Shown piece after piece: positions 31,592 through 40,016 of a DNA stretch of 62,563 bases. The stretch covers positions 1 to 62,563 of the forward strand of contig JAFQEM010000010.1 in NCBI GenBank assembly GCA_017399035.1, read 5' to 3'. Origin of the DNA: Clostridia bacterium (GTDB lineage Bacteria; Bacillota; Clostridia; Christensenellales; Borkfalkiaceae). The first letter of the stretch is position 1, and each line of letters opens with the position of its first letter. Made by a program: the position numbers and the translations under genes. Below the pieces are notes generated by a model that was not told the origin of the DNA, searched no databases, and saw only the letters and a list, made by a program, of their open reading frames with translations.

Positions 31592-32023
31592 TTAACCTTT
31601 TAACGACTTTAATTCGTCAATAGCCAAATTATAACCCTCAAAGCCTTTGCCTGTTATAGTTTTAACCGCAAACTCTTTAACAAAAGATATTTTTCTAAAA
31701 TCTTCACGCTCGTTGACTTCTGTTATATGAACTTCTACGGTAGGAATATTTACAGACTTAAGCGCATCTAAAATAGCAACGCTAGTATGAGTGTAAGCGC
31801 CTGGATTTATAACTATTCCGTCAAACTTATTATAAGCCTTTTGAATTTTAGTTACTATTGCGCCCTCGTAATTAGACTGATAACACTTTACGCTTACCCC
31901 CACGTTTTTTGCGTGAGTTTTTATTAACGAAAGCAAATCTTTATAACTTTGTTTTCCGTAAAGATTTTTTTCTCTTATGCCCAACATATTTAAGTTAGGT
32001 CCGTTAATAACTAAAATTTTCAT
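31592..32023 (-). CDS. aroQ: Type II 3-dehydroquinate dehydratase
   Basis: 143 residues. It has the dodecameric type II signature [12 protein letters not shown] at the start, then [17 protein letters not shown] and [11 protein letters not shown]. It dehydrates 3-dehydroquinate to 3-dehydroshikimate, step 3 of the shikimate pathway. It is the last gene of the operon, coupled to aroE-aroK by a 4-nt ATGA overlap. Confidence 0.97.
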
Positions 32024-33246
32024 AAATTTTCTAACACCCCTTTGACTGCCAACTCTAATTCGCTATTGTTGTCAATCTTTTTATCTGCAAAATATTCGTA
32101 ATTTTCTTTGCGCTCTAAATAAAGTTTTTCAACCGTTTGCCTATCCTTTGAAAGCGGTCTGCCCTCGGCAACAAGTTTTTCAACGCTACGCTGTATCCAA
32201 AATATTTTGCCGTTACTCTTTAACGGAAAATAATTTTCTCTATTTTTTATAACGCCACCACCCGTTGCAATAACTTTGCCCGTGGTTAAGCCAACTTCTC
32301 TTAAAACTTCGCTCTCTAACTTTCTAAACTCTTCTTCGCCTTTCGTTGCAAAAATTTCGGCAATTTCCATGCCCGCTTTTTTTATTATTTCTTGGTCAGT
32401 ATCTATAAATTCTCGGTTAAGGGTGCTTGCAACTGCTTTGCCTATCGTACTTTTGCCACAACCGGGCATACCTATAAGCACAACGTTTTGCATATCGCTA
32501 GACAGTTTTTTAACTATCGGCTCAATAACCTCTTGACTTACGCAAACGTCTAAAAACTTTTCCATTGCGTATTTGGCTTGAGCAACAAGCATAGGCAATC
32601 CGTTTGAATACGCAACGCCTCTTTGCTTTGCTTGATACAATAGTTTTGTCAATGCAGGGTTATAAACGGCGTCGGCAACACCCGTTAGCATAGAAAAAGC
32701 AGATAAATCTATTTTACACTCGTAGTTGTTAGGATACATACCCACGGGTGTGGTATTTATTACAACTTCGCTTTCTTTTGCAGTATCTTTATAGTTATCA
32801 TAATTGATTTCGCCCGTGCGTGATAATATCTTTACACTCTTTGCGCCAAGGCTTGTTGCAACTGCGCGCGCGGTTGCGCTTGTTCCGCCACTGCCTAAAA
32901 TTAAAACGTTTTTATCTTTAACCACTATACCCGCTCTGTCGAGCATATATTTCATACCGTCAAAATCGGTGTTGAACCCTAAAATTTTACCATTTCTATA
33001 CATAACGGTATTTACTGCGCCTATTGCCTTTGCGCGCTCGTCAACGTAGTCAAGATATGGTATAACGTCTTTTTTATAAGGAATTGTAACGTTAAAACCA
33101 TCAAGTTTACCGCTCAAAACAAACTCTTTTATATCTTCGGGCTTAATTTCATAAAGTTCGTATGAATAATCACCCAAAAGCGAGTGGATAGGTTTAGAAA
33201 AACTGTGTTTTAACGTTTTTCCGATAAGTCCAAATTTTTTAGTCAT
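32020..33246 (-). CDS. aroEK: Fused shikimate dehydrogenase-shikimate kinase
   Basis: 408 residues. The first ~245 are Aro[30 protein letters not shown] with the catalytic Lys, NTDFDGM, and the NADP-binding [14 protein letters not shown]. From about residue 250 the chain is AroK: Walker [19 protein letters not shown], and [10 protein letters not shown]. It therefore performs steps 4 and 5 (dehydroshikimate to shikimate to shikimate-3-phosphate). Usually these are separate proteins. No frameshift or in-frame stop at the junction. It lies 3 nt downstream of pheA. Confidence 0.95.
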
Positions 33247-33249
33247 AAC

Positions 33250-34395
33250 TTAAAGCACTTCTCCATATGCGCCGAGGAAAGTAAATTGCTCGGTAGAATT
33301 ATCTAGTTCACAAAGAAGATTTTGAACGCCCTTTTGCTTAATATCACAGTTAAAGTCAAAATAGAACATAAATTCAAAACTTGAACCGACTATAGGGCGA
33401 GATTCCAACTTGGTTAAGTTTATGCCTAAATTAGAGAATTTTGCAAGCAATTTATTAAGACTACCAGGTGCGTTTTGTGGCAACGTGGTCATAATGCTTA
33501 TCTTGTTTGCGCCCTCGTAAAATTCCATTTCTTTAGCGATAAGTATAAAACGAGTATAGTTATGGTCGCTGTCTTGAACGTTGGTTTCTAAAAGTTTTAA
33601 GCCGTAAAGGTCTGCGCACTCTCTTGAAGACAAAGCCGCAACGTCACTTCTTCCGCTATCTGCAACCATCTTTGACGCAACCGCCGTGTTAGAGCAAGCA
33701 ATTATTTCTGCATTTTTAAATTGTTCAAGATATTTTTTGCATTGAGAAAGGGCCTGTTCGTGCGAATAAATAATTTTAATATCTTCTTTCTTTGCATCTT
33801 TATTTGCAATCAAATTATGAGAGATAGAAAGTCTAACGCTTCTAACGATATAAAATTTATGCTCTTTCATAAGGTCGTAAACTTGATTTACAGAACCTGC
33901 AGAACTATTTTCGATAGGCAACACACCGTATTTGCAAAAACCCTTTTCAACAGCAGAAAACACACCTTCAAAATTCTTAAAATACGTTATGTCTGCAAGT
34001 TCAAACAACTTATCCGCAGCAATGCCCGAATACGCACCCGTTACGCCTTGGCAAGCAACCTTTGCTTTAACTGGAAATTTTAACTCGCCTTTACTTAGCG
34101 CATTTTGAATTTTATCGCCTATTTCCGAACGATATTCGGCGTTCATTGTTTGATAAGCCTTGCTAGTTTCAAAAATAGTTTCAAACACTCTTTTAAGATA
34201 AACTTGCTTTTCTTCGCCAACCTTTTCAGAAACTCGTAGCAAAATTTTTCTTTCTCTATCGGGGTCGTTCACCGCTTTGCCCGTTTGCTTTTTAGCCTCG
34301 CTAACCTGCGCCACAAGTTGCATACGTTGTTCGTAAAGCGTTGCAATTTGGTCGTCAATTATGTCAATATTTTTTCTGATGTCGCTTAATTCCAT
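33250..34395 (-). CDS. pheA: Bifunctional chorismate mutase/prephenate dehydratase (P-protein)
   Basis: 381 residues. The N-terminal AroQ-type chorismate mutase spans about 1-85 (LSDIRKNIDIIDDQIATLYEQR). Prephenate dehydratase follows with GVTGAYSGIAADKLF, VLPIENSSAGSVNQVYDLM and NYTRFILIAKE. A C-terminal ACT domain contains ESRPIVGSSFEFMFYFD, the site of phenylalanine feedback in this family. It makes phenylpyruvate. A usual TRF motif is present. Confidence 0.96.
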   Translation of the reverse strand: MELSDIRKNIDIIDDQIATLYEQRMQLVAQVSEAKKQTGKAVNDPDRERKILLRVSEKVGEEKQVYLKRVFETIFETSKAYQTMNAEYRSEIGDKIQNALSKGELKFPVKAKVACQGVTGAYSGIAADKLFELADITYFKNFEGVFSAVEKGFCKYGVLPIENSSAGSVNQVYDLMKEHKFYIVRSVRLSISHNLIANKDAKKEDIKIIYSHEQALSQCKKYLEQFKNAEIIACSNTAVASKMVADSGRSDVAALSSRECADLYGLKLLETNVQDSDHNYTRFILIAKEMEFYEGANKISIMTTLPQNAPGSLNKLLAKFSNLGINLTKLESRPIVGSSFEFMFYFDFNCDIKQKGVQNLLCELDNSTEQFTFLGAYGEVL

Positions 34396-34407: not shown

Positions 34408-35484
34408 TTATAAAACGTCGTATATTGCTATTGATGCAATAGCCTCTATTACGGGAACAGCCCTTGGCGTAATGCACGCGTCGTGCCTGCCCTCAATTTT
34501 AAGTTTTACGTTTTTCTTTTCTACCATATCAATAGTGTCTTGTTCTTTGCCGATACTAGGCGTAGGCTTAATAGCAACCCTAAACGTTATGGGCATTCCG
34601 TTAGCAATTCCACCGTTTATTCCACCGTTATGGTTAGTTTTAGTTTTTACATTTTCGCCGTCGTAATAAAACTCGTCGTTTGCTTGACTTCCACGCATTG
34701 AACTTATTTCAAAACCCGTTCCAAATTCAATACCCTTTACGGCAGGAACAGCAAACGCTAATTGCGATATTACGCTCTCTATACTGTCAAACATATATTC
34801 GCCAACGCCCACGGGTACGCCAGTTATTACGCAGTCTATAATCCCACCAACCGAATCACAATCCATACGCGCTTTTTCAATTTCTTCAAACATTGCGTCT
34901 AAATCATTTTGGTCAATCACGGGAAAATTTTTATCCCCTACAGGAATAACTTCGCCAAAAACGTCTTTATAACTTTTGCCTTTGACCTTTCCTATCTGTG
35001 ATATGAACGCCGTTACTTTGATGCCTTTTTTCTCAAGTAACTGTTTGCAAATTCCACCCGCAATACACATAGGCGCGGTTAGTCTACCTGAAAATTTACC
35101 ACCGCCACGATGGTCAAATCCGTCGCCATACTTACTCCAAGCAACAAAATCTGCGTGAGATGGACGAGGCGTTTTGACAACGTTGTTATAATCTTGACTT
35201 CTTTGAGAAGTATTTTTTATAACCGCTTTAAATTCACCGCAAAACTTTTGCCCGTCAAAACCATTTTCTATAATAACCTTATCGGGTTCTATGCGTTTAG
35301 TTGAATAAGCGGTGTTTTTTGCGCTACGGCGAGCCATAAATTCTTGCAAAACTTCAAAATCTGCACACTCACCGTCAAGACCGCTCACCTTTACGCCTAT
35401 TTCTTGCCCGTGCGACGCACCAAAGACTTCCACTTTTAATTTATTTCCGTTATAAACGGAAAATTGTTTATCGTTAAATTGCAT
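34408..35484 (-). CDS. aroC: Chorismate synthase
   Basis: 358 residues from ATG 35484. The longer frame upstream runs antiparallel-free through aroA in another frame and is not part of the protein. It has the FMN/active-site motifs GASHGQEIGV, RPSHAD, GGGKFSGRLTAP and MRGSQANDEF. It converts EPSP to chorismate using reduced FMN. It overlaps aroA by 11 nt; translation is likely coupled. Confidence 0.96.
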   Translation of the reverse strand: MQFNDKQFSVYNGNKLKVEVFGASHGQEIGVKVSGLDGECADFEVLQEFMARRSAKNTAYSTKRIEPDKVIIENGFDGQKFCGEFKAVIKNTSQRSQDYNNVVKTPRPSHADFVAWSKYGDGFDHRGGGKFSGRLTAPMCIAGGICKQLLEKKGIKVTAFISQIGKVKGKSYKDVFGEVIPVGDKNFPVIDQNDLDAMFEEIEKARMDCDSVGGIIDCVITGVPVGVGEYMFDSIESVISQLAFAVPAVKGIEFGTGFEISSMRGSQANDEFYYDGENVKTKTNHNGGINGGIANGMPITFRVAIKPTPSIGKEQDTIDMVEKKNVKLKIEGRHDACITPRAVPVIEAIASIAIYDVL

Positions 35485-36667
35485 TTGCCTTACCCCCGAG
35501 TGAGTTGTAATCTTCAAAAAAGGTAGGATACGACTTATTTGCAGATTGCGCGTCAATAATTTCTGAAACGCCTTGCGCCCCCAAAGCAAGAATTGCTGAT
35601 GACATTGCAAGCCTGTGGTCGTTAAACGTATCTGCGCAACCACATATAGGCTTTCCACCGTAAACCGTAAAGTTTTCGCCGTCGCAGTCCCCTTTAATTC
35701 CAAAACTTTTTAACATAGCAAGCGTACTCTCAATTCTGTCGCTCTCTTTTATTTTTAATCTGCTTACGTTTTTGATTACGCTTACACCGTCGGCATACGC
35801 CCCAAGCACGGCGGTTATAGGCACTAAATCAGGGCAATCTTCTGCGTCGTAAGTAAAGGCTTTAAGTTTGCTCTTTTTTACGGTAATTCCGCAATCGCTA
35901 ATTTCAACGTTTGCCCCTGCAAGTTTTAGCACGTCTATTATTTGTTTATCACCTTGTTTGCTTGAAAGGTTTAAGCCTTTTACCGTGATATTGCCGTTTA
36001 TTGCGCCAGCGCAAAGGAAAAACGCCGAATTAGACCAGTCGCCCTCAGGGCTACCGTTGCCCTTATAAACTTGATTACCTTTTATCTTAAATCCGTTTTC
36101 TTGCTTAATAATTTCAATGTCAAACTTATCTAATACTTCAAGGGTAATTTCAACGTAGGGCGCAGACACCAACGGCGTGGTTAAAACTATTTCACTGTCG
36201 CCGTCAAGGGTGGGCAACGCCATAAGTAACCCCGATACGTATTGAGAACTTATATCCCCACGAATACGATATATTCCACTCGTCAACTTACCCTTTAATT
36301 TAATGCAATCGTCTTGTTTTATCTCAACACCGTGTTCACGCATAACCGCAAATAATTCTGCGTTGGGTCTTTGCATAAGTTTTCCGTGGCCGATAAACGT
36401 ATATTCTCCGCCAAGCACAGCGCAAAGCGGTAGCATAAACCTTAACGTAGAACCCGACTCTCCACAGTCAATCACGTTCACTTTTTTTAATAGACCACGT
36501 AAACAGTTTTCCGTTATGGTAATATCGTTTGAAGTAAAACCGCCACAGCACGCGTCGGGGTTGTTACCTGCAAAAAAATTACAAATTGCTATTCTGTGTG
36601 CGTAAGATTTTGAAGGAATTGCATTTATAACGCCAGATAGAAAGGCGTTTTGTATTTTTACGTTCAA
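35474..36667 (-). CDS. aroA: EPSP synthase (3-phosphoshikimate 1-carboxyvinyltransferase)
   Basis: 397 residues from TTG 36667, chosen because GGGGG lies 8 nt upstream and the protein then starts LNVKIQNAFLSGVINAIPSKSYAHR, the family opening. An alternative TTG at 36682 lacks a ribosome site. The motifs GESGSTLRFMLPLC (PEP site) and SDRIESTLAMLKSFG are present, with FNDHRLAMS near the end. It joins PEP to shikimate-3-phosphate. The TTG overlaps the aroB stop (ATTGA). Confidence 0.94.
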   Translation of the reverse strand: MNVKIQNAFLSGVINAIPSKSYAHRIAICNFFAGNNPDACCGGFTSNDITITENCLRGLLKKVNVIDCGESGSTLRFMLPLCAVLGGEYTFIGHGKLMQRPNAELFAVMREHGVEIKQDDCIKLKGKLTSGIYRIRGDISSQYVSGLLMALPTLDGDSEIVLTTPLVSAPYVEITLEVLDKFDIEIIKQENGFKIKGNQVYKGNGSPEGDWSNSAFFLCAGAINGNITVKGLNLSSKQGDKQIIDVLKLAGANVEISDCGITVKKSKLKAFTYDAEDCPDLVPITAVLGAYADGVSVIKNVSRLKIKESDRIESTLAMLKSFGIKGDCDGENFTVYGGKPICGCADTFNDHRLAMSSAILALGAQGVSEIIDAQSANKSYPTFFEDYNSLGGKANAI

Positions 36668-37710
36668 TCTAAATACCCCCAAAGATTAGAGATTTCAATT
36701 TTGACGGGTCTGCAATCGCCTACGCCGTGAACCATAATAAGCGTTATATAATCACCGCTACGTTTTTTATCAGTAAGAGATGCATTGCAAATTTGCTCAA
36801 TAGTATAGGGGCAAGCCGTTTGCCTAACGTTATCTTCAACAATTTTAATTGCATTTTGATATAAGTCGCTATCTATAAACCCGTGGTTTAGAGAACTTTT
36901 AAGTATAATTTTCAGCCCCATTGCGACTGCGTTTCCGTGCGGAATAGTATAATTAGAAAGTCTTTCTATTCCGTGCGCAGGGGTATGACCTAAATTAAGA
37001 AGTTTACGCAATCCGCCCTCAAACTCGTCTTTTTCTACCACCATACGCTTATAATCCACGCAAAGATAAACTAGGTCTACGATATCGTAGTCAGTTAAAA
37101 GTAAATCAAAAACACGCTTGTCGAGCAATGAATATTTTACTGCCTCGCCCATACCGTCTTGAAAAATTGACTTGGGCAAAGTTTTAAGCATATCCGTATC
37201 GCAAATTACAAGTTCGGGTTGATAGAAGGCACCTACCAAATTTTTACCTTGAGGTAAATCAATAGCAGTTTTTCCACCAACCGAAGAATCTATTTGCGCA
37301 AGTAAAGTGGTAGGAATTTGAATATATTTAATACCTCTTAAGTAAGTTGCAGATGCAAAACCTGCCATATCACCAACAACGCCACCGCCAAGAGCGATTA
37401 TTGCGTCCGTTCTTGTGAATTGATTTTCAGCCAAAAACTGCAAAATTTTAGAATACGTATCAATATTTTTGCTACACTCTCCGTGTAAAAATGCAAACTT
37501 TACAACTTCAAAACCGCTATCTTTTAACAAGTTGATAACTTTTTGAGAATACAAGCCGTCAACCGTATCGTCGGTAACTAACGCAAGTTTTTTTGTCGTT
37601 ACAACTTGGCTAACAAGTTTACCAACGTTTTCAATTATTCCGCTACCTATAATAACGTCGTAAGGCTTTGATACTTTTACATTTATAATTTTTTGTGCAT
37701 TACTTGTCAT
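36664..37710 (-). CDS. aroB: 3-Dehydroquinate synthase
   Basis: 348 residues. The NAD-binding ALGGGVVGDMAGFASATYLRG, DSSVGGKTAIDLPQGKN and zinc-ligand LNLGHTPAHGIE and HGNAVAMG motifs are all present. It cyclises DAHP to 3-dehydroquinate. It overlaps tyrA by 11 nt. Confidence 0.97.
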   Translation of the reverse strand: MTSNAQKIINVKVSKPYDVIIGSGIIENVGKLVSQVVTTKKLALVTDDTVDGLYSQKVINLLKDSGFEVVKFAFLHGECSKNIDTYSKILQFLAENQFTRTDAIIALGGGVVGDMAGFASATYLRGIKYIQIPTTLLAQIDSSVGGKTAIDLPQGKNLVGAFYQPELVICDTDMLKTLPKSIFQDGMGEAVKYSLLDKRVFDLLLTDYDIVDLVYLCVDYKRMVVEKDEFEGGLRKLLNLGHTPAHGIERLSNYTIPHGNAVAMGLKIILKSSLNHGFIDSDLYQNAIKIVEDNVRQTACPYTIEQICNASLTDKKRSGDYITLIMVHGVGDCRPVKIEISNLWGYLD

Positions 37711-38563
37711 CTACAACCTTGCTCCTTCTCATCTTTTCGGACAAGAGTTTTTTCTCATTACCGTCAGCGAGTAATTGTTTCATCTTGTCAATATCACGAT
37801 TTTTAAGCGCGCTTTTATATTCATTTAAGCTATTAACTATAGAATCTATTTCGTTTACCAAAAAATCTGCGTTATCTATGGTCAGTTGCGACCACATCTC
37901 GGGTGAAAGCCTTGCAACCCTTGTCATATCTCTAAAACTGCCTGCGGAAAAGCCCATAAACTGCAAAGCCGTTTCACTCTTTATATACGCGCTTGACACC
38001 AAATGCGCAAGTTGTGAAGTAAACGCTATAATTTCGTCGTGCTTTTCTGCCGTGGTTATAACAACCGTGCCAAAACCGATTGACAACGAATATGCTTTTA
38101 GCCACGCAATTTTTTTCAAATCTGCCTTTACGGGAACAAGAATCATTGACGCTCTGTCAAAAAGCGTTGCGGTTGAGTGATTTACGCCTGAAAATTCACG
38201 CCCCGCCATAGGGTGTGCGCTTATAAAATCTAATTTAGGAAACTTGTTTGCAAGTGTTTTCATTTGCTCAACAACCCTGCGTTTGTTTCCGCAACAGTCC
38301 ATAACCAAACACCCGTCTTTAAGAAGTGGACAATATTGTTCTAACGCACCTTCTAGTGCGTTGGGATATAGCGAGAGCACCAAAACGTCTAATTCTTTAA
38401 CGTTTTGCTCGTTCAACTCGTGATGATATGCGCACAACAACTTGCCGTCAAGCATTGCTTTTTTGCTTACGTCAAACGCATAAACAATATCTTTAGTGCG
38501 GTTTACTATCGTTCTGCCAAGCGAACCGCCTATCAATCCCAAACCTATAATACCTATCTTCAT
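37700..38563 (-). CDS. tyrA: Prephenate dehydrogenase
   Basis: 287 residues from ATG 38563 (a TTG lies 2 codons upstream). The Rossmann motif GIIGLGLIGGSLGRTI opens the protein. SAHPMAGREFSG and the TAEKHDEIIAFTSQLAHLVSSA segment match TyrA. It oxidises prephenate to 4-hydroxyphenylpyruvate for tyrosine. No chorismate mutase or ACT domain is fused. The mutase comes from PheA, later in the operon. The Shine-Dalgarno is weak. Confidence 0.94.
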   Translation of the reverse strand: MKIGIIGLGLIGGSLGRTIVNRTKDIVYAFDVSKKAMLDGKLLCAYHHELNEQNVKELDVLVLSLYPNALEGALEQYCPLLKDGCLVMDCCGNKRRVVEQMKTLANKFPKLDFISAHPMAGREFSGVNHSTATLFDRASMILVPVKADLKKIAWLKAYSLSIGFGTVVITTAEKHDEIIAFTSQLAHLVSSAYIKSETALQFMGFSAGSFRDMTRVARLSPEMWSQLTIDNADFLVNEIDSIVNSLNEYKSALKNRDIDKMKQLLADGNEKKLLSEKMRRSKVVDDK

Positions 38564-38580
38564 AATCAACCGTTCTTAAG

Positions 38581-39597
38581 TTAAAAATTTACTTTTTTTC
38601 CTACTAATTTTGCCATTGCCCCAACTTTACCCATAAGTGAAGAGAATTGTTCGGGGTTAAGTGATTGCGCACCGTCGCAAAGGGCGCGTTTGGGGTCGTT
38701 GTGAACTTCTATAATCAAACCGTCTGCACCTGCGCCCACGCTTGCTAGCGACATAGGTTCAACGAATTTGGCTATACCAGTAGAGTGGCTTGGGTCAATA
38801 ATTATAGGCAAGTGAGTTTTTTCTTTAAGAGCGGGAACAGCCGACAAATCAAGGGTGTTTCTTGTCATTGTTTCAAAAGTTCTTATGCCCCTTTCACATA
38901 AAATAACCTGACAATCGCCCTCTGCCATAATGTATTCTGCGCTCATAAGCAGTTCTTGCAATGTGTTCGCAAGTCCACGTTTTAATAATATAGGCTTACC
39001 GGTCTTTCCAACTTCTTTCAAAAGTTCAAAGTTTTGCATATTTCTTGCGCCTATTTGAATTATGTCAACGTCTTTAAACAAATCAAGGTGGCTAACCGAC
39101 AAAAGTTCAGTTACTATCGGAAGACCTGTTTCTTCTTTCGCTTTAAGAAGTAAGCCTATACCCGTATCTTTAAGACCTTGGAAAGCGTAAGGCGAAGTTC
39201 TTGGCTTAAATGCGCCACCGCGAAGAAGCGTTGCCCCCGCTTTTTTTACAGCCTTTGCAACTTCAATAATTTGACTTTCAGATTCAACTGAACACGGCCC
39301 TGCAATAACCGTAAAATTATCGCCACCGATTTTAGTTCCACCAACTTCAACAACCGTGTCAACAGGGTGAAACTTTCTATTTGCATTTTTATAAGGCTCT
39401 TGAACACGCTGAACTTGTTCAACGATATCTAATGAAGAAATTAAGTCTTGGTCAACCTTGCTAGTATCGCCAACAAGACCTAAAACGGTTGACTGTTCGC
39501 CACGACTAACGTGAACGTCAAGCCCAAGTTCTTTTATCCATTCAACAAGATTGTTAAATTGCTGTTGTTCACAAGAATTTTTTACTACGATAATCAT
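38581..39597 (-). CDS. aroF: DAHP synthase (3-deoxy-7-phosphoheptulonate synthase, type I-beta)
   Basis: 338 residues. An N-terminal ferredoxin-like domain (about 1-70) precedes the barrel with AGPCSVES, LLRGGAFKPRTSPYAFQG, GARNMQNFELLKEVG and DPSHSTGIAKFVEPM. This is the AroF subtype common in Bacillota. It condenses PEP and erythrose-4-phosphate, the first and controlled step. It is the first gene of the aromatic operon, 234 nt after the leader terminator. Confidence 0.97.
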   Translation of the reverse strand: MIIVVKNSCEQQQFNNLVEWIKELGLDVHVSRGEQSTVLGLVGDTSKVDQDLISSLDIVEQVQRVQEPYKNANRKFHPVDTVVEVGGTKIGGDNFTVIAGPCSVESESQIIEVAKAVKKAGATLLRGGAFKPRTSPYAFQGLKDTGIGLLLKAKEETGLPIVTELLSVSHLDLFKDVDIIQIGARNMQNFELLKEVGKTGKPILLKRGLANTLQELLMSAEYIMAEGDCQVILCERGIRTFETMTRNTLDLSAVPALKEKTHLPIIIDPSHSTGIAKFVEPMSLASVGAGADGLIIEVHNDPKRALCDGAQSLNPEQFSSLMGKVGAMAKLVGKKVNF

Positions 39598-39673: not shown

Positions 39674-39828
39674 AAACGGATTAGATGCAAGACAATTTAT
39701 TTTAATGGTTTAGAAACAAGTTGCAGTAGGCTCGACCAAGCAAAAGGATGAAATTGACCTTTTTGGTCATTGAAGTCCAAATGCTTTTCAGTAACGACGC
39801 ATAACGAAGTTTATAAAACGCTTAATAA
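39674..39828. repeat. Intergenic repeat within the aro leader (copy 6)
   Basis: Starts AAACGGATTAGATGCAAGAC and contains the inverted pair TTGACC-TTTTT-GGTCAT followed by TGAAGTCCAAATGC, then AAGTTTATAAAACGCTTAAT. It is a divergent member of the family seen at 9311 and 24156. It lies between the attenuator hairpin and aroF. Confidence 0.6.
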
Positions 39829-39830
39829 GA

Positions 39831-39859
39831 AAGGGCTTTGTAATCACTACAAAGCCCTT
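39831..39859 (-). terminator. Attenuator terminator hairpin of the aro operon
   Basis: Perfect 10-bp stem AAGGGCTTTG / CAAAGCCCTT with a 9-nt loop, followed on the minus strand by TCTTATT. The tail is weak in T. An upstream GCUUGA (39872-39877) can pair with UCAAG (39857-39861) and would compete with the hairpin. Confidence 0.7.
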
Positions 39860-39912
39860 GAGTTTGTTTTTTCAAGCAAAAACAATCCGTATAGTAATTA
39901 CTATCGAAATAT

Positions 39913-39963
39913 TCAAGACCTGCTATTAAAGTAAAAGTAAAAATACGAATTGTTAAATTTCAT
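39913..39963 (-). CDS. Phe/Tyr leader peptide of the aromatic operon
   Basis: 16 codons: MKFNNSYFYFYFNSRS, with YFYFYF at positions 7-12, giving four Phe and three Tyr. GAGGG lies 6-8 nt before the ATG. It begins about 18 nt after the predicted transcript start and is followed by alternative RNA pairings and a terminator hairpin. This is the layout of ribosome-stalling attenuation, as in E. coli pheL. The operon makes both Phe and Tyr. Confidence 0.85.
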   Translation of the reverse strand: MKFNNSYFYFYFNSRS

Positions 39964-39987
39964 AATATTGCCCTCTAAATTGCCTTT

Positions 39988-40016
39988 ATTATACTACTAC
40001 AAAAAAGAACTGTCAA
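39988..40016 (-). promoter_or_regulatory. Promoter of the aromatic amino acid operon
   Basis: TTGACA (40011-40016), 17-bp spacer, TATAAT (39988-39993), perfect consensus on the minus strand. Confidence 0.9.

Follow-up and report, generated by a model that had tools for sequence, protein, structure and literature searches.

The window analysed here, the whole stretch of 62,563 nucleotides, carries on its minus strand an operon of eight genes (aroF-tyrA-aroB-aroA-aroC-pheA-aroEK-aroQ) downstream of a short leader. In the order of transcription the genes are:

38581..39597, minus strand, aroF, 3-deoxy-7-phosphoheptulonate synthase, first gene under control (NF006421, 494 bits, cut-off 335)
37700..38569, minus strand, tyrA, prephenate dehydrogenase family (best match under the curated cut-off)
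36664..37710, minus strand, aroB (family match)
35474..36682, minus strand, aroA (family match)
34408..35490, minus strand, aroC (family match; start approximate)
33250..34395, minus strand, pheA, chorismate mutase-prephenate dehydratase (family match)
32020..33246, minus strand, aroE-aroK fusion, shikimate dehydrogenase and kinase domains (matches under the curated cut-offs)
31592..32023, minus strand, aroQ, type II 3-dehydroquinate dehydratase (family match)

Despite their sub-cut-off scores, the best matches of tyrA and of the two fusion domains agree with the assignments. None of the eight is a Trp gene, as anticipated by the original prediction, according to which these genes make Phe and Tyr and nothing specific to Trp. 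The leader itself comprises the following elements:

39988..40016, minus strand, sigma-70 type promoter, TTGACA (40016-40011), 17 nt and TATAAT (39993-39988), 12 of 12 consensus matches
39971..39976, minus strand, leader ORF ribosome binding site (RBS) AGAGGG, 7 nt ahead of the ATG at 39963, assigned by sequence
39963..39913, minus strand, leader peptide ORF MKFNNSYFYFYFNSRS, 16 codons, stop TGA at 39915-39913, its run kept in relatives
39928..39945, minus strand, control codons 7-12, TAT TTT TAC TTT TAC TTT (Tyr Phe Tyr Phe Tyr Phe), 90 of 90 Phe or Tyr in 15 window-type leaders
39859-39831, minus strand, intrinsic terminator, 12-bp stem AAGGGCUUUGUA/UACAAAGCCCUU, then UCUUAUU, found in 29 of 29 genus leaders

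A perfect promoter, a 16-codon ORF with a ribosome site and six alternating Tyr and Phe codons had been claimed from the sequence alone, and all three are present at these places. The ORF translates as M K F N N S Y F Y F Y F N S R S followed by the stop, and the purine-rich site where the RBS sits is also seen, by eye, in relatives. The terminator stem had been put at 10 bp within 39831-39859, two base pairs short of its actual length; the reservation made about the short T-run after it was justified, the tract (TTTCTTATT) being poor. Two terminator-like sites (single hairpin, both strands) were counted, vs a mean of 0.1 in shuffles, and the minimum free energy of the whole leader was low (z = −3.15; none of 200 shuffles was equally low). 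The number of promoter-like sites was non-significant (2 vs 2.5 expected), one of the two being the 12/12 site. At the Rfam gathering score the leader had no match to any family, the Phe leader of Proteobacteria included; the sole match in the window was an FMN riboswitch elsewhere (RF00050, 48617-48732, minus strand, 116.8 bits).

A dispersed repeat of ~125 bases lies at 39701..39827 (minus strand), between the terminator and aroF and within the leader transcript. Besides its own site and a self-match of the terminator, 24 further matches, whole or partial and 69–100% identical, were found in the genome. By eye, similar sequence occupies the same place in L010 and L011 and is absent from some relatives. 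This pattern resembles the insertion of a small mobile element, and the repeat is probably not part of the switch.

An ORF with a start codon, an RBS and a promoter, a selected codon run and a terminator before the first gene are attributes of a trp/phe-type attenuator, and the leader shows them. We consider it highly probable that the leader is a trp-type ribosome-mediated transcription attenuator which senses Phe and Tyr and controls the aroF operon. Most of the comparative tests made support attenuation by a ribosome, as originally proposed, and the promoter, the ORF, the conserved codon run, the terminator and the competing pairings described below are established at the level of sequence and comparison.

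Conservation was analysed first within the genus, where 38 of 44 genomes have aroF and 30 loci, the window's own included, were examined. A Tyr/Phe leader ORF and a terminator lie upstream of aroF in 29 of these 30; in the remaining one (L113) no such leader was present in the 900 nt upstream. A terminator was present in all 29 leaders (28 identified by script; that of L110 located by hand, by sequence), as was a promoter with at least 10 of 12 consensus matches. Relatives with the same operon and no run or hairpin had been named in advance as evidence against the proposal: within the genus 29 of 30 loci keep both, whereas in the wider Clostridia relatives without the run do exist, some of them with a T-box. 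The genus loci were split by eye into set A (15 leaders of the window type), which read ..SYFYFYFN.. or near it with the linker UUAGUAAUUACUAUACGGAUUGUUUUUGCGUG or near it, and set B (14 leaders of a sister clade), which mostly read like ..FYFYFGYYFRKPC/Y with the linker UAAUAUCGGUUAUUUUUUGC or one close to it. In the set A run, 90 of 90 codons specify Phe or Tyr; Phe is always TTT, while TAT and TAC are used about equally for Tyr and interchange freely, and the sole replacement is Phe to Tyr in L102. A motif model (R1) found the aroF leader as its sole match in G000. It hits 18 of the 44 genus genomes at E = 0.01. In 16 of them the hit is strong (E = 2.2e-13 or better) and falls immediately upstream of aroF; of five weak hits (E = 0.002 to 0.007), three are on the opposite strand of aroF-leader loci, and the other two are at unrelated places in G025 and G026. 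The model does not reach the sister clade, which is too distant.

These comparisons bear on two alternatives that keep the hairpins and assign the sensing differently. The better of them, which we regard as improbable, is a nascent-chain arrest peptide of the TnaC kind, in which the ribosome would be stalled by unbound Phe or Tyr, or by the peptide as such, and not by a shortage of charged tRNA. The end of the peptide is indeed conserved in most of the sister clade (RPY, KPY or KPC before the stop), for which a codon sensor has no need. However, outside the run the peptide is not the same in the two clades, nor among distant loci, Phe and Tyr interchange within the run, and the codons flanking the run sit in RNA segments able to pair. 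Somewhat less probable still is control of the hairpins by a protein that binds RNA or, as in a riboswitch, by a small ligand, with an incidental ORF and with the palindrome UAGUAAUUACUA as the binding site. The palindrome or a near copy does occur twice in the window-type leaders L093-L107, in the linker and in the terminator (39903-39892 and 39850-39840 in the window; L102 differs at both places), but the sister clade lacks it and nevertheless has the same kind of Tyr/Phe run. The conservation of the run at the amino-acid level and the lack of an Rfam match at gathering score at the leader also argue against such control.

The distribution of leaders outside the genus was analysed in the best 80 of 595 aroF candidate stretches, drawn from one genome per species for 84,980 species. 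ORFs of 10–45 codons within 450 nt upstream of aroF were searched, with a threshold of at least 6 Phe/Tyr in 10 residues; L011 scores low under this limit, its leader lying more than 450 nt from aroF. A dense Phe/Tyr ORF was found in 61 of these best 80 of 595 loci (a count that still includes L073, wrong-looking by eye), vs 1.34 of 80 in dinucleotide shuffles and 2 of 80 on the opposite strand. A second, even sample of 147 Clostridia genomes, all except the window's own chosen for a completeness of at least 90%, contained 109 genomes with aroF. The 109 upstream regions analysed come from 102 of these genomes (29 loci plus 80 fetched stretches, seven being second copies; for G139 the second-best copy replaces the best, which lies at the edge of a contig). 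Left out were the window and six genomes whose matches were partial or unlisted. Dense Phe/Tyr ORFs occur in 49 of the 109 regions, four of them wrong-looking by eye (among L073, L207, L210, L219 and L221), vs 3 of 109 on the opposite strand.

The genome is AT-rich and Phe and Tyr codons are rich in T and A, so that the run could be imagined as a by-product of T-rich DNA, lying between a constitutive promoter and an unregulated terminator. This reading we judge very improbable given the dinucleotide-preserving shuffles (1.3 against 61 of the best 80 of 595) and the opposite-strand counts in both samples. Attenuation remains the preferred reading, and a T-box or other tRNA-binding leader that senses uncharged tRNA directly can be set aside almost entirely: although T-boxes have matches in every kin genome and precede aroF in some leader-lacking regions, neither the window (model RF00230) nor the 20 leader-bearing regions scanned has a match, which refutes it at the Rfam gathering threshold.

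T-box matches (E = 0.001 or better) were found in 21 of 21 genomes of the window's kinship, its own included, and lie above the cut-off in 20. Upstream of aroF, in the sense direction, Rfam T-boxes were detected in 8 of 40 scanned regions (from 49 scoring at most 4) and in none of 20 scanned leader-bearing regions (from 49); among the best 80 of 595, 13 loci, most of them low-scoring, had none either. Since T-boxes occur in leader-lacking regions and in none of the leader-bearing ones scanned, the two look like alternatives at aroF. Many Clostridia aroF genes have neither a visible leader nor a visible T-box. Apparently, then, the Phe/Tyr leader is common in Clostridia and a T-box is found at some aroF genes that lack it. 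The window's genome has three T-box matches (L232, L233 and L234). The one above the cut-off precedes an apparent thrS; the two below it precede long ORFs that resemble, by eye, an XRE/cupin protein and an AMP-binding acyl-CoA synthetase. Two genomes of the same order have a second aroF (L229 and L230), each preceded by a similar short ORF that is rich in Phe and contains one Trp (MMATVSTRFFNMFCFNGFYRWSFFAC in L230); this may be a leader that senses something else.

Which amino acids the leader reads was examined in 134 leaders, counted without L073, L207, L210, L219 and L221; the set contains some duplicates from the overlap of the 80-locus and genus sets (for example L009/L097 and L010/L099), and not all its members are independent. 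Phe accounts for 497 residues of their runs, Tyr for 465 and Trp for 8. This scarcity of Trp follows in part from the choice of leaders by Phe/Tyr density; an earlier scoring in which Phe, Tyr and Trp counted alike chose mostly the same ORFs, as judged by eye. At least two Phe and at least two Tyr codons are present in 123 of the 134, two leaders have no Tyr and one has no Phe. Codon use therefore favours the claim that a single leader senses both amino acids: Phe and Tyr are probably both read, and Trp hardly at all. One leader reading several amino acids is familiar from the ilv and thr leaders.

For the pairings that would compete with the terminator, the relevant segments of the window copy are:

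39944..39954, minus strand, segment 1 AACAAUUCGUA, partner 39891-39881 (UACGGAUUGUU), anti-antiterminator candidate by pairing; varies between species
39913..39921, minus strand, AGGUCUUGA across the stop codon, partner 39861-39853, second antiterminator helix, favoured in the window copy under a stalled ribosome (cognate test, P = 0.0008)
39890..39900, minus strand, segment 2 UAAUUACUAUA, partner 39851-39841, antiterminator in window-type relatives (cognate above non-cognate, P = 0.0038)
39881..39891, minus strand, part of segment 2, UACGGAUUGUU, pairing with segment 1
39853..39861, minus strand, UCAAGGGCU, beginning of the terminator 5' arm, partner 39921-39913 (folding and cognate test)
39841..39851, minus strand, terminator arm and loop UGUAGUGAUUA, partner 39900-39890 (pairing)

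Every one of the 29 genus leaders has, near the stop codon, a stretch of linker able to pair with the 5' arm and loop of the terminator, at −11 to −24 kcal/mol (energies taken without shuffles). Compared with shuffled linkers, the antiterminator energy gave a mean z of −2.3, with 40 of 62 loci at P = 0.05; these loci are from the best 80 of 595, being those with a terminator among the 67 with an F/Y score of at least 5 (minus L053, L073 and L088). Cognate partners paired better than non-cognate ones for linker and terminator in set A (P = 0.0038) and set B (P = 0.0004), for codons 13-18 and the pre-terminator in set A (P = 0.0008), and for segment 1 and linker (P = 0.012 in set A, 0.006 in set B); when the test used just the initial ten bases of the terminator arm in set A, no advantage was seen (P = 0.80). 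The pairing of segments 1 and 2 is clear in the window copy (39954-39944 with 39891-39881). Against shuffled linkers segment 1 did less well, being significant at P = 0.05 in 25 of 55 loci from the best 80 of 595 and in 6 of 29 genus leaders, where it was misplaced for the window copy; its position there was set by the densest 10-residue window, and the cognate test was given more weight. For this 55-locus set, and for the 84-leader folding set below, seven further loci with weak hairpins were dropped.

In the set B alignment, at the best-pairing register, 90.6% of antiterminator cells are paired, vs 27–43% when the register is slid. Double changes occur in 2 of 10 antiterminator pairs, a number equalled in 80 of 500 shuffles, and the covariation score was reached in 14 of 500; the terminator co-varies strongly (97.1%, 0 of 500 shuffles). 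Judged from the pairing energies and the cognate test, a conserved antiterminator exclusive of the terminator is present; its formal double changes are few and its co-variation is modest.

The second of two pairings put forward in the original prediction, involving UCUUGA at 39918-39913, was favoured by folding: UCUUGA pairs with UCAAGG, as part of the full helix AGGUCUUGA:UCAAGGGCU, in the lowest-energy structure with a ribosome on codons 7-11, and the counterpart of this stop-codon helix in relatives is the one whose cognate partners pair better at P = 0.0008. For the first, GCUUGA (39877-39872) with UCAAG (39861-39857), both segments lie at the positions given. It was rejected as main antiterminator, since it does no more than lengthen the linker helix at its outer end; once a ribosome occupies codons 7-11, GCUUGA lies in a hairpin loop elsewhere. 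Two elements are additional to that proposal: the linker antiterminator, 39900-39890 with the terminator arm and loop, which would be the main one in relatives, and the candidate anti-antiterminator 39954-39944:39891-39881. In many of L093-L122, GCAAAAA near the leader RBS complements UUUUUGC in the linker, with matched differences in L109. The cognate advantage for RBS and linker was P = 0.013 in the sister clade and 0.10 in the window clade, and the window keeps only GGGCAA:UUGCUU. Outside the window copy, this pairing might limit repeated translation of the leader.

The effect of a ribosome was modelled by masking an assumed 30-nt footprint in an equilibrium calculation. In 26 of 29 genus leaders the linker helix was likelier with the ribosome stalled than with it at the stop codon; the exceptions (L093, the window copy; L099; L104) are the three with an early ORF stop. 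In the window, the TGA lies four codons ahead of an in-frame TAG (39903-39901), the stop aligned in most set A relatives; in L099 and L104 the early stop results from a different change. TGA is taken as a stop and not as a sense codon, since 2 of 13 checked window ORFs (aroE-aroK and aroB) end in TGA. For the window copy the linker helix alone has probabilities of 0.01–0.18 with a stalled ribosome vs 0.55 with one at the stop, which is the wrong sense; as sole antiterminator there it was rejected, the stop-codon helix taking its place. When any upstream capture of the terminator 5' arm is counted, the window gives 0.63 stalled (mean over the first four run codons) vs 0.22 at the stop. Folding of the window copy thus favours the stop-codon helix as antiterminator over the linker helix of its relatives. 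The same measure in 84 leaders was higher for the stalled ribosome by over 0.1 in 58 and reversed in 7. With shuffled linkers the expected sense was obtained in 167 of 420 and the reverse in 65 of 420, so that part of the effect is due to position alone. Folding with and without a ribosome had been suggested as a check. Without one, 0.74 of the window terminator arm is captured upstream in the partial transcript, while in the full transcript the terminator stands at 0.93. The genus mean of capture is 0.63 without a ribosome vs 0.61 stalled, and the linker helix is likelier stalled than without a ribosome in 17 of 29. On average the ribosome-free state in the genus is therefore as permissive as the stalled one, and termination of untranslated leaders does not follow from the modelling.

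From these elements we infer that the ORF is translated, that ribosomes stall in its run and that the switch responds to Phe and Tyr, in the following manner. The transcript would begin shortly upstream of the 16-codon ORF. With ample Phe-tRNA and Tyr-tRNA, the ribosome would clear the six Tyr/Phe codons and arrive at the stop codon, where it would cover the RNA that could otherwise act as antiterminator; the terminator at 39859-39831 would form and transcription would end. If either tRNA were scarce, the ribosome would stall in the run and cover segment 1, leaving the downstream RNA free to take the terminator 5' arm, mainly through 39921-39913 with 39861-39853 in the window and mainly through the linker helix in relatives. 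With its 5' arm captured the terminator would fail, and the operon would be transcribed.

Leader-like ORFs were also observed outside Clostridia. In a tree of 81 aroF proteins, four Lentisphaerota sequences (L041, L044, L051 and L059) and two from Treponemataceae (L060 and L071) with such ORFs fall among Clostridia, as does aroF with a leader-like ORF on a Thermoguttaceae (Planctomycetota) contig (L049); the three other Spirochaetota rows of the tree have no leader-like ORF. The terminators after the ORF are good in L041, L044, L051 and L071 and weak in L059 and L060, and none was found after the ORF of L049. The aroF gene and its leader may have moved together, binning errors being the alternative explanation. 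Promoter spacing was analysed in 105 leaders, 67 of which have a promoter with at least 10 of 12 matches. In six of these 67 (L012, L017, L018, L019, L022 and L028) the -10 box ends 6–7 nt before the leader ATG, vs at least 11 nt, and nearly always at least 20, in the other 61. Such a spacing predicts a leaderless mRNA. L034, under the leader threshold, has a spacing of 6, while L021, of the same Christensenella-related clade, has ordinary spacing. To judge by these distances, the leader mRNA is probably leaderless in this clade (L012, L017-L019, L022, L028 and L034). Leaderless attenuator leaders are known in other phyla, as with Sinorhizobium trpL.

Put together, these observations suggest a broader picture to which we give an even chance of being right: a Phe and Tyr attenuator may be a leading control of aroF in Clostridia, in nearly half of those sampled, alternating with T-boxes; it would have moved with aroF to Lentisphaerota, Treponemataceae and perhaps Planctomycetota, and be leaderless in one Christensenella-related clade, with the first base at about the A of the start codon. 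Printed hints of it are scattered. If this is true, the entry enzyme of aromatic biosynthesis in many gut Clostridia is set by translation of a tiny peptide, with both products read, and not by a T-box or a repressor. Since a leader, a T-box or neither may precede aroF genes of this kind, the gene lends itself to the study of how RNA switches replace one another.

The E. coli pheA and trp attenuators have a run of product codons, a stop codon before the antiterminator and the logic of 1:2, 2:3 and 3:4 pairing, which the leader described here shares, the 1:2 pairing as a candidate; they differ in sensing one amino acid, in their unrelated sequence, and in gene order and phylum. The enterobacterial ilv and thr leaders likewise contain codons for several products and serve the branched-chain or Thr/Ile pathways. 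Bacillota are better known for T-boxes. Codons for more than one product also occur in the uORF of Corynebacterium ilvB, in a pathway other than that of Tyr and Phe (PMC11109978). Attenuation by leader peptides in Bacillota has been reported for hisS/hisZ of bacilli, which have a His leader (PMC2965389), and for Staphylococcus aureus, with an attenuator peptide rich in leucine (PMC5794164), again for other pathways.

Closer to the present case, a figure legend in PMC6429828, a study of five genomes including Clostridium novyi, lists a pair of candidate uORFs that contain Phe and Tyr codons; these too are short ORFs with both codons ahead of shikimate-pathway genes, and the legend itself gives no mechanism, spread, host genome or pairings. 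The motif uORFC-13-1 (PMC8632094) lies upstream of aroF in Acholeplasma and environmental sequences, with 24 representatives. By its description it resembles the present leader in its target, promoter, RBS, uORF with Phe codons, adjacent intrinsic terminator and proposed attenuation; it differs in that only Acholeplasma and unknown organisms are listed, at least one Phe codon is required, and the section on it contains no claim for Tyr and no antiterminator. Compared by description only, the window leader (a uORF with Phe codons, promoter, RBS and terminator ahead of aroF) fits uORFC-13-1. Earlier proposals of leader control for aroF in other bacteria are absent from the original prediction. 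The parts of the open PMC literature covered contained no account of aroF attenuation by a Tyr/Phe leader in Clostridia. This kind of attenuator is known, its mechanism is not new and aroF had already been proposed as a target; what is added, and is worth a short description, is how widely it is spread in Clostridia, counts for the use of both codons, and the pairings.
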